DNA of 40,986 nucleotides, taken from positions 1 to 40,986 of the forward strand of contig NZ_APHY01000028.1 of the NCBI RefSeq assembly GCF_000417505.1, written 5' to 3'. Under the pieces are notes generated by a model that did not search any database, had not been told where the DNA came from, and saw only the letters and a list, made by a program, of their open reading frames with translations. The DNA is from Megasphaera sp. NM10. Lineage in GTDB: Bacteria > Bacillota > Negativicutes > Veillonellales > Megasphaeraceae. Made by a program: the position numbers and the translations under genes. Below, piece by piece: positions 9,660 through 16,788 of this stretch. Every line of letters starts with the position of its first letter. Position 1 is the first letter of the stretch.

Positions 9660-9703
9660 ATAATCGTTGCTGGCAGTATATAACTGCTATACCAAACGAT
9701 TAT
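9660..9703 (+). promoter_or_regulatory. two-tier stem-loop in the atp leader
   Basis: ATAATCGTT (9660-9668) pairs with AACGATTAT (9695-9703), enclosing a second stem TGGCAGT (9671-9677) with ACTGCTA (9683-9689). It begins at the expected transcript start and lacks a T-run, so it is more likely a 5' stabiliser or protein-binding site than a terminator. Function unknown. Confidence 0.5.
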
Positions 9704-9740
9704 GGAAAACTGCCATCGCCCGAGCAGGAGTGTATGTAGT

Positions 9741-10016
9741 ATGAGACATCATGATGATCCTCACGATGACAAATTAAATCACATGAGGCTTTGGGATATT
9801 GTTGTCATTGCCGGTTCCTTAGGTTTGTCTCTCTTCGTCTGCATCTGTGTCGGCGTCGCCATAGGGCACTTCATCGATGTCCATGCCGGGACGTCGCCGT
9901 GGGGATTGATTCTTTTTTCCTTCATCGGTGCCATCTCCGGATTCTGGACCTTATATAAAAAAGCCTTGTCCTATCAGCAGGACGAGGCGCGCCATGGCCG
10001 GCATCTGCGCAAGTGA
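9741..10016 (+). CDS. atpZ: AtpZ/AtpI family membrane protein
   Basis: 91 residues with a His/Asp-rich N-terminus (MRHHDDPHDDK) and two transmembrane helices (about residues 15-38 and 50-70), ending in a basic tail. This is the layout of AtpZ-type proteins encoded just ahead of F1Fo ATP synthase genes, linked in some species to Mg/Ca transport and in others to enzyme assembly. ATG 9741 is preferred over the in-frame ATG 9702 because AGGAG lies upstream and the shorter form matches the family. Confidence 0.75.
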   Translation: MRHHDDPHDDKLNHMRLWDIVVIAGSLGLSLFVCICVGVAIGHFIDVHAGTSPWGLILFSFIGAISGFWTLYKKALSYQQDEARHGRHLRK

Positions 10017-10036
10017 AATGTCACGGAGGATAGCCT

Positions 10037-10405
10037 ATGGAAGCGTTTTATGCTTATGTAAAGGCAACAATATACAAGCTCGTTGGTTTTACGTGTATCG
10101 TCACGGCCGTCCTTTTTCTAGGAGGCTGGTGGCAGTACATAAGTGGCTGGTGTATCGGCAGCGGCTTGAACATCGTTTATTTCTTCATGCTCAGCAGCCG
10201 TTCGGTACGGGCCTTAAAATTGCCGCCTGGGCAGGCGGCGTCATTCATCCGCGGCGGTGCCGTGTTCCGGCTGGTCTTCATCTGCCTGGCCGTCATCGTC
10301 ATCCTGCAGTTCCCGTCCATTTCCCTGGGGGCTGCCGTGGCCGGTATCTTTTCGTACCGCGTCCTCGTCTTCGCAGATGTACTGACTGCGCGTCTCAGAC
10401 GGTAA
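10037..10405 (+). CDS. atpI: ATP synthase subunit I
   Basis: 122 residues, four hydrophobic helices (around 12-30, 38-55, 73-90 and 94-112), start ATG with GGAGGATAG. Position between AtpZ and subunit a, together with size and topology, identify AtpI, an assembly factor for the c-ring. Sequence is poorly conserved across the family, so the call rests mainly on context and topology. Confidence 0.75.
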   Translation: MEAFYAYVKATIYKLVGFTCIVTAVLFLGGWWQYISGWCIGSGLNIVYFFMLSSRSVRALKLPPGQAASFIRGGAVFRLVFICLAVIVILQFPSISLGAAVAGIFSYRVLVFADVLTARLRR

Positions 10406-10424
10406 AGGAAAGGAGGTATTGCGT

Positions 10425-11095
10425 ATGGAATTACATGCAGGGCATCATATGGTCGTCCAGCTCCTGGGTCTGAATGTCAACTTGGATACGCTCATGATGA
10501 CCTGGCTGGTTGCGGCTTTGGTCATTATCGTCACTGTCGCTGCGACAAGGGGCCGGTCCCTCGTCCCGTCAGGACTTCAGAACGCCATGGAAATCGTCAT
10601 CGAAGCATTGCTCGATCAGTTCAAGGAAACGTTGGGGCCGAAATACGGCCAGGTCGTTTCGGTCTTGCTGACGATGTTCCTGTTCATCCTCTTCGCCAAC
10701 GAATTGGGCATGCTGCCGAATCCGCATGTCCTGCTTCGCCGACGAATGATTTGAATACGACTGTCGCCCTGGCACTGGTTTCTTCCTTTATGGTCCACTT
10801 CATGGCCTTGAAGAACCAGGGGTTCAAAAAGCATTTCAAGCATTTCTTCGAACCCTTTGCGCCGTTTGTCGTCATCAATCTGATGGAAGAAATCACCAAA
10901 CCGTTGACACTGGCCTTCCGTCTCTTTGGCAACATCCTGGCCGGTGAAATCCTGTTGGAAGTCCTGTACTTCCTCGTGCCTGTCGCCATCCCGATGATTT
11001 GGATCCTCTTTAGCTTCGTCATCGGCCTCATCCAGGCATTCATCTTCACCATTCTGACTACATCGTATCTGGCACCGTCCTTTACGGAAGACTAA
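10425..11095 (+). CDS. atpB: ATP synthase Fo subunit a, broken by a single-base deletion
   Basis: Membrane stator subunit forming the ion half-channels. Start ATG 10425 with AAAGGAGG. The first frame runs to ANELGMLPNPHVL, then misreads and stops at 10754. The normal continuation (S-P-T-N-D-L-N-T-T-V) is in another frame from about 10733 and continues to 11095 with the essential-arginine motif TLAFRLFGNILAGE and the C-terminal helices. One base is missing near 10731 (CTGCTTCGCCG would need one more base after CTG). Without it the product would be about 223 residues, a normal length. No slippery heptamer is visible. Since the rest of the operon is intact, a sequencing error is the simplest explanation. 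Confidence 0.88.
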
Positions 11096-11136
11096 GAAAA
11101 GCTCAGATACCGTTACAACTTAGGAGGTTATTTATT

Positions 11137-11394
11137 ATGGAAAAAGCTCTCGTATTGGCATTATCTGCATTTGGTGCATGCTTAGGTATTGGTTTGGCAG
11201 CTCTCGGCGCTGCTATCGGTGACGGCCATGCCGCATCGAAGATGCTTGAAGGTACGGCCCGCCAGCCGGAAATGGGCGGCAAACTCCTGGTCAACATGCT
11301 TATCTCCATCGGCCTGATCGAATCCATGCCGATTATCGCAGCTGTCATCGCTATCGTATTGGTCTTCGCCAATCCGTTCGTCAGCCTGCTCTAA
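11137..11394 (+). CDS. atpE: ATP synthase Fo subunit c, with acidic residues in both helices
   Basis: 85-residue hairpin of two transmembrane helices forming the rotor ring. The loop ARQPE (residues 41-45) is canonical. The ion-binding carboxylate is Glu62 in helix 2 (GLIESMP), followed by Ser63. Helix 1 reads AAIGDGHAA and places Asp29 where Na-type rings have Gln/Glu (Gln32 of Ilyobacter tartaricus) and E. coli has Ile28. Two facing carboxylates recall the two-carboxylate Na-coupled ring of Fusobacterium nucleatum; Na or H specificity here cannot be decided from sequence. Strong Shine-Dalgarno (TAGGAGG) fits its high copy number. Confidence 0.95.
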   Translation: MEKALVLALSAFGACLGIGLAALGAAIGDGHAASKMLEGTARQPEMGGKLLVNMLISIGLIESMPIIAAVIAIVLVFANPFVSLL

Positions 11395-11432
11395 TCCGAA
11401 GATTCTAATATACAGCCGGGGAGGGAAGTACA

Positions 11433-11930
11433 TTGGTTAGTATTAATGGTACCTTGCTGTTCCAGTTCATCAACTTCTTCGTGTTAGTTGCCATTCTGGC
11501 AAAGTTCGCTTATAAACCGCTGCTCAAAGTCCTGGAAGACCGCCGCAACAAGATTGCGTCGGACCTCGACAACGCAGCCAAAGCCCGGGAAACGGCTGAA
11601 AAGATGAAAGCCGACTATGAAGCCCAGATCCGCGATGCCCGTGCTGAAGCCCAGGCCATTGTCGACAAAGCTGTCAAGCAGGCCGACAAAGAAGCCCAGG
11701 CCCAGCTGGAAGCCATCCGCGCCCAGATCGCCCGGGAAAAACAGATCGCCCAGACGGAAATCGCCAACGAACGGGAAGCGGCTATCCGGGAAATGCGTAA
11801 TGAAGTAGTCACACTGTCCATGGCTGTGGCAGAAAAACTGCTCCAGAAAAACATGGATCCTGACATGAACGCCAAACTGGTAGCCGATTGCATCGACCAG
11901 CTCCAGACGCACCGCGTAAAGGGGAACTGA
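11433..11930 (+). CDS. atpF: ATP synthase Fo subunit b
   Basis: 165 residues: one N-terminal membrane helix (about 8-27) followed by a long charged coiled coil (KARETAEKMKADYEAQI..., QADKEAQAQLEAIRAQ), the peripheral-stalk arrangement. It starts at TTG 11433 after GGGGAGGGA; no ATG is available nearby. Four nt separate it from atpH. Confidence 0.93.
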   Translation: MVSINGTLLFQFINFFVLVAILAKFAYKPLLKVLEDRRNKIASDLDNAAKARETAEKMKADYEAQIRDARAEAQAIVDKAVKQADKEAQAQLEAIRAQIAREKQIAQTEIANEREAAIREMRNEVVTLSMAVAEKLLQKNMDPDMNAKLVADCIDQLQTHRVKGN

Positions 11931-11934
11931 TCTT

Positions 11935-12501
11935 ATGATACCCGAAACGATCTATAGCAAATACAGCCAGGCGATGTTCGACATCGCCAGCGAACAGAAG
12001 AAGCTTACCGAGTTCGGAACAGAACTGAAAGGCGTACGGGACACGTTCCAGGAAAATCCCGATTTGTGGAAATTCCTGAATCATCCCCTCGTACCGCCGC
12101 AGTCTAAAAAAGACACACTTGCAAAGATTTTCAAGGACAGCCTATCGCCGATCGTCCTGCAGTTCATGTACGTCATGATCGACCGGCGCCGGGAAGCGGC
12201 CCTCTTGCTTGCCATTGACGGGTTCATCGATTTGGCCCGCAAGGCCCAGCACATCGAAGTGGCCAAGATCCGCGTCGTCAAACCACTGTCCAAGAAAGAA
12301 GAAACGAAACTGGTTGCCAGCCTGGAAGCCATGACGGGTCAGCACATCGAACCGCTGTACTACGTCGACCCGTCGCTCATCGGCGGCATGGTCATCCAGA
12401 TCGGCGACAAACTAATAGACGGCAGCCTCCGGCGGCAGCTGCGCGATATGCAGCATAAACTGCTCCAGGCTGACGTGACGAATGGGGTGACGGACGAATA
12501 A
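11935..12501 (+). CDS. atpH: ATP synthase F1 subunit delta
   Basis: 188 residues. The N-terminal helical domain ([18 protein letters not shown]) and C-terminal part ([45 protein letters not shown]) match the OSCP/delta family, which joins the b stalk to the top of F1. The stop codon overlaps the atpA start by one base (TAATG), implying translational coupling. Confidence 0.95.
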
Positions 12502-14036
12502 TGAAAATGAAGCCAGAAGAAATAACGGCTATAATCAAGAAACAAATCGAAGATTATAATGTGGAAATGAATGTCGACGACGTCGGCACCGTTCTGGAAG
12601 TCGGGGACGGCATTGCACACATTTACGGTTTGGACAAAGCCATGTCCGGGGAATTGCTGGAACTGCCTCACGGCGTTTACGGCATGGCCCTGAACCTGGA
12701 AGAAGACAACGTCGGCGCCGTACTGCTCGGCGATGACGCCCTCATCAAGGAAGGCGACACCGTCCGCCGTACAGGCCGCGTCATGCGTGTCCCTGTAGGC
12801 GAAGCCATGGTCGGCCGCGTTGTCAACCCCTTGGGGATACCTATTGATGGCAAAGGGGAAATCAAGACCAAAGATTCACGCCTCATCGAAGTCAAGGCTT
12901 TCGGCATCGCCGACCGCCAGCCGGTCAAGGTACCGCTCCAGACAGGCCTCAAGGCTATCGACTCCATGGTTCCTATCGGCCGTGGCCAGCGTGAACTCAT
13001 CATCGGTGACCGTGGCACCGGCAAGACGGCCATCGCCATCGATACCATCCTGAATCAGAAGGACACAGGCGTCATCTGCGTCTACGTCGCTATCGGCCAG
13101 AAGGCATCGACCGTTGCCCGCGTTGTCCGGACCCTGGAAGAACACGGCGCTATGGCCTATACCATCGTCGTCGCCGCTACGGCTTCCGACGGCGCACCGC
13201 TCCAGTACCTGGCCCCGTATTCCGGCGTTTCCATGGCCGAATACTTCATGCTCCAGGGCAAGGACTGCCTCTGCGTCTACGATGACTTGTCCAAACACGC
13301 TCAGGCTTACCGCGCCATGAGTCTGCTCCTCCGTCGTCCGCCAGGACGTGAAGCATACCCGGGCGACGTATTCTACTTACATTCCCGTCTCCTCGAACGC
13401 GCTGCCAAGCTGTCCGATGAACTCGGCGGCGGCTCGATTACGGCCCTGCCGATCATCGAAACCCTGGCCGGTGACTTGTCGGCCTATATCCCGACTAACG
13501 TCATTTCCATCACAGACGGCCAGATCTTCCTGGAAACAGAAGCCTTCAACTCCGGGATCCGCCCGGCTATCAACGTCGGCCTCTCCGTTTCCCGTGTCGG
13601 CGGCTCCGCCCAGATCAAGGCCATGAAGAAAATCGCCGGTACCCTCCGCCTGAGCCTGGCCCAGTACCGCGAATTGGCCGCTTTCGCCCAGTTCGGCTCC
13701 GACCTCGATAAGAGCACGAAAGCCCAGATCGACGCCGGCGAACGGACGATGCAGCTCCTCATCCAGCCGCAGTATCAGCCGATGCCCGTCGAAGACCAGG
13801 TCATGCAGATTTACCTGGCCGTCAAGAACTACCTCATGCCTGTACAGGTTGAAGAAGTTTCTCAGTTTGCTGACGGCTTCATCAAGTTCATGCACAGTAA
13901 CTATCCGGAAGTCGGCGAAAGCATCAAATCGACGAAGGAACTCGGCAAAGACGCAGAAGCTACGCTGCAGAAGGCTATCGCTGAATACACCAAGCAGTAC
14001 GGCGCTTCTCACGAACTGATCAAAGAGGAGGAATAA
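12501..14036 (+). CDS. atpA: ATP synthase F1 subunit alpha
   Basis: 511 residues, non-catalytic nucleotide-binding subunit. P-loop GDRGTGKT at residues 169-176; further landmarks are the [15 protein letters not shown] region, the [35 protein letters not shown] stretch and the signature [14 protein letters not shown] with the alpha arginine finger. ATG 12501 overlaps the atpH stop; ATG 12507 is an alternative. Codon use is strongly G/C-ending. Confidence 0.97.
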
Positions 14037-14039
14037 GCT

Positions 14040-16362
<2,323 letters not shown>

Positions 16363-16365
16363 TCT

Positions 16366-16788
16366 ATGGCAGAAGCAGGAAAGACCCTCCATCTGGAAGT
16401 CATTACACCCGATGCTGCCGTACTCCATGAAGATGTGGATTTCGTCCTCGTCCGCGCATTGGACGGCGACTTGGGCATCATGCCCAATCATGCGCCGCTC
16501 ATCGCGTCCCTGTCGATTTGGCCCCTGTGCTATGATAAAGGCGGAAAGCGCCAGTGCGTCACCGTAGCGTCGGGCTTCCTGGAAGTCCATGACAATACGG
16601 TCACAGTCATCACGCCAGCTTCAGAAAAACCGGAAGACATCGACGTAGCCCGCGCCCAATCGGCGGAAAAACGTGCCGAAGACCGCTTGGTTGCACACGC
16701 TGCCGACCTCGACGTGACCCGCGCCGAAGCGGCCCTGCAACGAGCCCTGCGCCGCCTGGACGTCGCCGAAAAATACGGCAAGCAATGA
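16366..16788 (+). CDS. atpC: ATP synthase F1 subunit epsilon
   Basis: 140 residues: N-terminal beta sandwich (LHLEVITPDAAVL, ALDGDLGIMPNHAPLIASL, ASGFLEVHDNTVTVI) and a C-terminal two-helix arm rich in Arg/Ala. It is the last gene of the operon, three nt after atpD, followed by the terminator at 16872-16905. Confidence 0.95.
   Translation: MAEAGKTLHLEVITPDAAVLHEDVDFVLVRALDGDLGIMPNHAPLIASLSIWPLCYDKGGKRQCVTVASGFLEVHDNTVTVITPASEKPEDIDVARAQSAEKRAEDRLVAHAADLDVTRAEAALQRALRRLDVAEKYGKQ

Follow-up and report, generated by a model that had tools for sequence, protein, structure and literature searches.

Which ion does an ATP synthase rotor carry when its c subunit places an acidic residue in each of its two transmembrane helices, and what does the second acid do? 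The question is raised by atpE of Megasphaera sp. NM10, located at 11137..11394 on the forward strand of the window, meaning the whole stretch of DNA that was analyzed (40,986 nucleotides, contig NZ_APHY01000028.1). The encoded c subunit of 85 amino acids has Asp29 in helix 1 in addition to Glu62, the universal ion-binding carboxylate of helix 2, which is followed by Ser63. A preliminary description of the sequence compared this arrangement with the Na+ ring of Fusobacterium nucleatum and proposed that an Asp version could change ion selectivity. The analysis favors instead, with a probability of about 0.75 and by analogy with characterized rings, a H+-coupled ring in which Asp29 would stay protonated and silent, acting like the Asn of Bacillus PS3.

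The atpE product is an unexceptional c subunit of an F-type ATP synthase, from a Megasphaera-like member of the Negativicutes. Its translation matches PF00137 with 60.4 bits against a cut-off of 24 (Pfam) and contains the two-helix hairpin, the RQP loop and the helix-2 carboxylate expected of this family, within an atp operon. The AlphaFold2 model, built from 20 alignment rows, is a confident monomer hairpin (pLDDT 92.9) with helices at residues 2-42 and 44-78. A Foldseek search with this model returned solved c-ring or ATP synthase chains as the best 50 of 132 matches; these 50 include H+-type, Na+-type and mycobacterial c subunits alike and bear on the monomer fold only. Named near relatives include the Megasphaera proteins of M. 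cerevisiae and M. massiliensis, each 98% identical, and the named relatives also identify the class as Negativicutes. A second rotary ATPase in the same genome was considered and rejected, since the only PF00137 match there is atpE itself.

The neighboring genes all lie on the forward strand. An AtpZ-like gene (ATPase_gene1; 9702..10016, PF09527, 56.9 bits) stands upstream of the operon and is followed by atpI (10037..10405, PF03899 at 25.2 bits with a cut-off of 25.1) and atpB, encoding subunit a (10425..11095). Downstream of atpE are atpF for subunit b (11433..11930, PF00430), atpH for delta (11935..12501, PF00213), atpA for alpha (12501..14036, PF00006, PF00306 and PF02874), atpG for gamma (14040..14903, PF00231), atpD for beta (14875..16362, with a putative start and named by eye from the open reading frame translation) and atpC for epsilon (16366..16788, PF02823 and PF00401). 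In this assembly a single-base frameshift, located between 10732 and 10733, breaks the atpB gene into two PF00119 halves. Its frame stops 109 amino acids after the ATG at 10425, whereas that of a 95% identical relative (L037), which has one extra base at this point, reads through 223 amino acids. Over 9670-12861 the contig record L001 agrees with the window letter for letter. The frameshift may be either a mistake of assembly or a genuine mutation. Open-frame length is no test of an intact atpB, because the second half lies in a frame of 229 codons that is open by chance. In Anaeroglobus geminatus (L039, L058), the frame carrying the conserved RLFGN motif of subunit a stops short at 132 codons, and the N-terminal half present in the 13 other genus relatives checked is missing; this is perhaps another split or misassembled atpB.

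The position of Asp29 (codon 11221..11223) was determined by alignment with c subunits in the PDB. Against the F. nucleatum ring (3zk1), Asp29 corresponds to the helix-1 Glu, Glu62 to the helix-2 Glu and Ser63 to the Ser, with Met64 opposite Thr and Ile67 opposite Tyr. The consulted passages of PMC3692424 number this helix-1 residue Glu32 and give Gln at the same position in Ilyobacter tartaricus, and Asp32 of the mycobacterial rings also aligns with Asp29. As judged by these alignments, Asp29 is a conserved residue at the ion-pocket position, and within the class it alternates with Asn. Several parts of the preliminary description are upheld by this result: acidic residues occur in both helices, the Asp29, Glu62 and Ser63 codons span exactly 11221-11325 (Glu62 11320-11322, Ser63 11323-11325), Asp29 takes the place of Gln32 of Na+ rings rather than lying outside the pocket, Ser63 is kept, and a two-carboxylate precedent with Glu in helix 1 exists in Fusobacterium (Glu32/Glu65). 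By the positions of its acidic residues, the window subunit is a two-carboxylate c subunit. Among the features of a Na+-type ring it retains the Ser or Thr after Glu in the form of Ser63, has Asp in place of the helix-1 Gln or Glu, and has Met64 and Ile67 (codon 11335..11337) in place of Thr67 and Tyr70.

The preliminary description proposed comparing AtpE across the Negativicutes. In 141 c genes, drawn from 132 genomes of this class, residue 29 proved to be Asp 121 times, Asn 19 times and Gln once. Glu62 is invariant in this set, and Ser63, present in 92 genes, is replaced by Ala in the remaining 49. These genomes form a non-random sample of the 355 with a match, comprising all 60 of the window's order and 72 picked for genus spread. 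Excluded from the count were 22 loci that gave no F-type row and were regarded as V-type (L002-L021, L028, L029) and, against double counting, the named loci L046-L125 as well as duplicate retrievals of a single gene. Within the order, 60 of the 61 genomes searched gave a match; 59 of these have Asp at residue 29 and the other has Asn. Asp29 is therefore beyond chance, and the alignments show it to be common to most relatives, not peculiar to the window organism. The one-base frameshift in the adjoining atpB of the same assembly could be taken to mean that Asp29 is likewise a sequencing error, or else an acidic residue that a single strain acquired by chance; given the conservation across the order and an identical protein in another genome of the genus (G333), this explanation deserves practically no credence and was ruled out.

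Asp and Asn coexist at residue 29 within four genera (g12, g30, g37 and g38). A tree computed without the residue 29 column and without the single Gln row implies at least eight Asp/Asn changes, four of which are forced by starred branches, with weak support overall: it is based on 81 columns, and 66 of its 115 inner branches are unresolved. The changes suggest that a neutral amide repeatedly substitutes for the acid. Since Asp-to-Asn takes one base change, the exchange alone is no proof of neutrality.

A second position varies together with residue 29. Among 201 genes sampled from the class and the rest of the phylum, Asp or Asn at residue 29 occurs with Ile, Leu or Met at residue 67 in 173 of 173 cases, and Gln or Glu with Tyr or Phe in 28 of 28. 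The class contributes all 140 of its Asp/Asn genes to the first group, and its lone Gln is accompanied by Tyr. The phylum sample outside the class (60 genes, 59 genomes) has Gln in 25, Asn in 17, Asp in 16 and Glu in two, with Tyr or Phe at residue 67 in all 27 Gln/Glu genes and Ile or Leu in all 33 Asp/Asn genes. It was drawn from 352 genomes with a match, 20 of which are in the class, by choosing only genomes outside it and favoring better-scoring loci, mostly one per family, and is thus non-random and covers one phylum. A c subunit identical to the Bacillus PS3 chain (L303) has Asn29 with Ile67, and M. smegmatis has Asp and Ile at the corresponding positions. The residue 29/residue 67 rule yields two kinds of pocket among the sampled c subunits. 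By this pairing Asp29 falls in the Asn class, that of Bacillus PS3, apart from the class with Gln or Glu plus Tyr to which Ilyobacter and Fusobacterium belong. Pocket class alone does not fix the ion, because the 2wie ring, called proton dependent in the title of its entry, has Gln and Tyr.

The samples also contained other c subunits. One genome of the class (G097) encodes, at L216 beside L215, a second c subunit with Gln29-Glu-Ser-Tyr67, unlike its main Asp-type gene; presumably this locus resembles N-type or alternate operons. Many genomes of families f5 and f6 also have the apparent V-type c subunits excluded above, and those that aligned (L003, L012, L014, L016) have Gln and Glu-Thr in the second hairpin. 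They may belong to a separate Na+ machine. Two loci (L073 and L089) from metagenome-assembled genomes titled Acholeplasmataceae encode Acidaminococcus-like c subunits, so that these labels are probably wrong.

In the preferred H+-coupled ring, Glu62 would carry the transported H+, and Asp29, permanently protonated, would donate a hydrogen bond to Glu62 in the role of the Bacillus PS3 Asn or the mycobacterial Asp32. Ser63 may contribute a further hydrogen bond. As a permanently protonated donor, Asp29 would neither carry a second ion nor set a Na+ selectivity. The Bacillus PS3 ATP synthase is H+-coupled. The abstract of PMC6377231 mentions the proton motive force in general terms. Silent second carboxylates have been described elsewhere. 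In F. nucleatum, according to the available text of PMC3692424, the second carboxylate keeps its proton at all times and this proton is not carried along with the transported ion; the authors anticipate that double-carboxylate H+ rings behave likewise. The excerpt of PMC5376962 treats the second carboxylate of the Burkholderia pseudomallei ring, a Glu, as permanently protonated. Full equivalence of Asp and Asn is counted against by an excerpt of PMC9264385, which doubts the viability of a D32N mycobacterial ring.

Asp29 could, by a different account, titrate in the physiological range and serve as a pH sensor or gate. It would then be a real second titratable group, tuning the pKa of Glu62 or gating the ring by pH throughout the class, a control that the Asn lineages would have given up. 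The Negativicutes include acid-producing fermenters, a point in favor of such a gate. If true, this would concern a class of anaerobes that includes many acid producers, and the class would offer a natural test set for the second rotor carboxylate. A gate of this kind was proposed for engineered two-carboxylate mutants of E. coli, but the consulted passages of PMC3692424, where this is discussed, attribute the pH effect instead to a lowered pKa at the site of transport. The repeated natural exchange of Asp with Asn also argues against it, and the account is very improbable.

The preferred H+ reading must also be weighed against a Na+-coupled two-carboxylate ring of the Fusobacterium kind, in which Na+ would be bound by Glu62, a protonated Asp29 and Ser63 and would follow a gradient made by an Rnf-type pump. 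Retention of the second carboxylate and of Ser63, a Na+-type residue that speaks against the H+ reading, fits such a ring. The genome also encodes a protein of the NqrB/RnfD family and, together with the Na+-dependent Rnf that a reference title from an Acidaminococcus/Megasphaera group reports, this makes a Na+ cycle possible in the window organism. A Na+ decarboxylase pump was considered and rejected after a search of the genome gave no OAD_beta match, an absence that also weighs against the Na+ ring. Two residues of Na+ rings are replaced, with Met64 and Ile67 standing where Thr67 and Tyr70 would be, and the pairing rule separates the two carboxylates: Glu29 is found with Tyr67 in two of two sampled genes, Asp29 in none of 137. 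The shorter side chain of Asp, compared with Glu or Gln, would probably also count against it. A Na+ ring is accordingly considered unlikely, also in view of the enzyme of a relative.

That relative is Sporomusa ovata DSM 2662 (L106, L267), which has one PF00137 match in its genome. Its sole c gene shares Asp29, Glu62, Ser63, Pro65 and Ile67 with the window (74% identity over 68 residues), differs in having Ile where the window has Met64, and contains no Gln except that of the RQP loop. According to the available passages of PMC9430772, the membrane ATPase of S. ovata is not stimulated by NaCl, a result that the authors term unexpected, and the c subunit is ascribed a Q...ET/S motif. The motif given in those passages is absent from the c gene, which has Asp in helix 1. 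With Asp in place of Gln, Na+ independence is no longer surprising, and the puzzle of a Na+-independent enzyme with a motif called Na+-type may be settled. The same text reports 198 uM contaminating Na+ in the "Na+-free" assay, at which a very high-affinity Na+ site would still be possible. The assay is that of S. ovata, and the window enzyme is known here from its sequence. Insensitivity to Na+, which the preliminary description gave as a refuting outcome, is thus reported for the ATPase activity of a relative, as distinct from carboxylate labelling or the window enzyme itself.

Taken as a whole, the preliminary description was right about the two pocket carboxylates, the Ser and the precedent. 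Its suggestion of a new or Na+-leaning Asp version is not supported: most c genes of the class have Asp at this position, an Asp/Glu pair exists in mycobacterial rings, Met64 and Ile67 take the places of the Thr and Tyr found in Na+ rings, Asp and Asn occur without an aromatic residue 67 throughout the 201 sampled genes, and S. ovata, with the same Asp, Glu, Ser and Ile67, has a Na+-independent ATPase. A literature search found no publication on the Megasphaera ATP synthase c subunit and sodium, the consulted part of the M. elsdenii and Rnf literature (PMC8473912) contained no statement on the ion of the ATP synthase, and among the papers listed by a search for Veillonella c-rings the sole one naming Veillonella was a polyphenol review. 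The significance is modest, in that the idea of a Fusobacterium-like Na+ ring is corrected, and natural Asp/Asn pairs within one genus would provide direct test material for the second rotor carboxylate.

Three known rings frame this assignment. The F. nucleatum Na+ c11 ring (3zk1) shares two carboxylates and the Ser after Glu with the window but has Glu in helix 1 instead of Asp, and Thr67 and Tyr70 instead of Met64 and Ile67. The Bacillus PS3 c-ring (1wu0, 6n2d) shares a short polar residue 29, the Glu and the subsequent Pro-Ile-Ile, and differs by Asn for Asp29, Ala for Ser63 and Leu for Met64. The mycobacterial rings (M. phlei 4v1f and M. smegmatis 7jg5; Asp32/Glu65), for which the comparison uses PDB sequences and passages of PMC8873251, PMC5874750 and PMC9264385, have the same Asp and Glu positions, the GDG motif and an aliphatic residue at the Tyr70 position, and 4v1f closely matches the fold of the window model with a TM of 0.77 and 39% identity in the structure match. 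They have Ala-Ala-Tyr after the Glu where the window has Ser-Met-Pro, with Ala opposite Ser63 and Tyr opposite Pro65. The Asp/Glu pair is present in these solved mycobacterial structures and is described in the available text of PMC8873251 and PMC5874750, and the window ring is thus a further example of a pair already known from mycobacteria.
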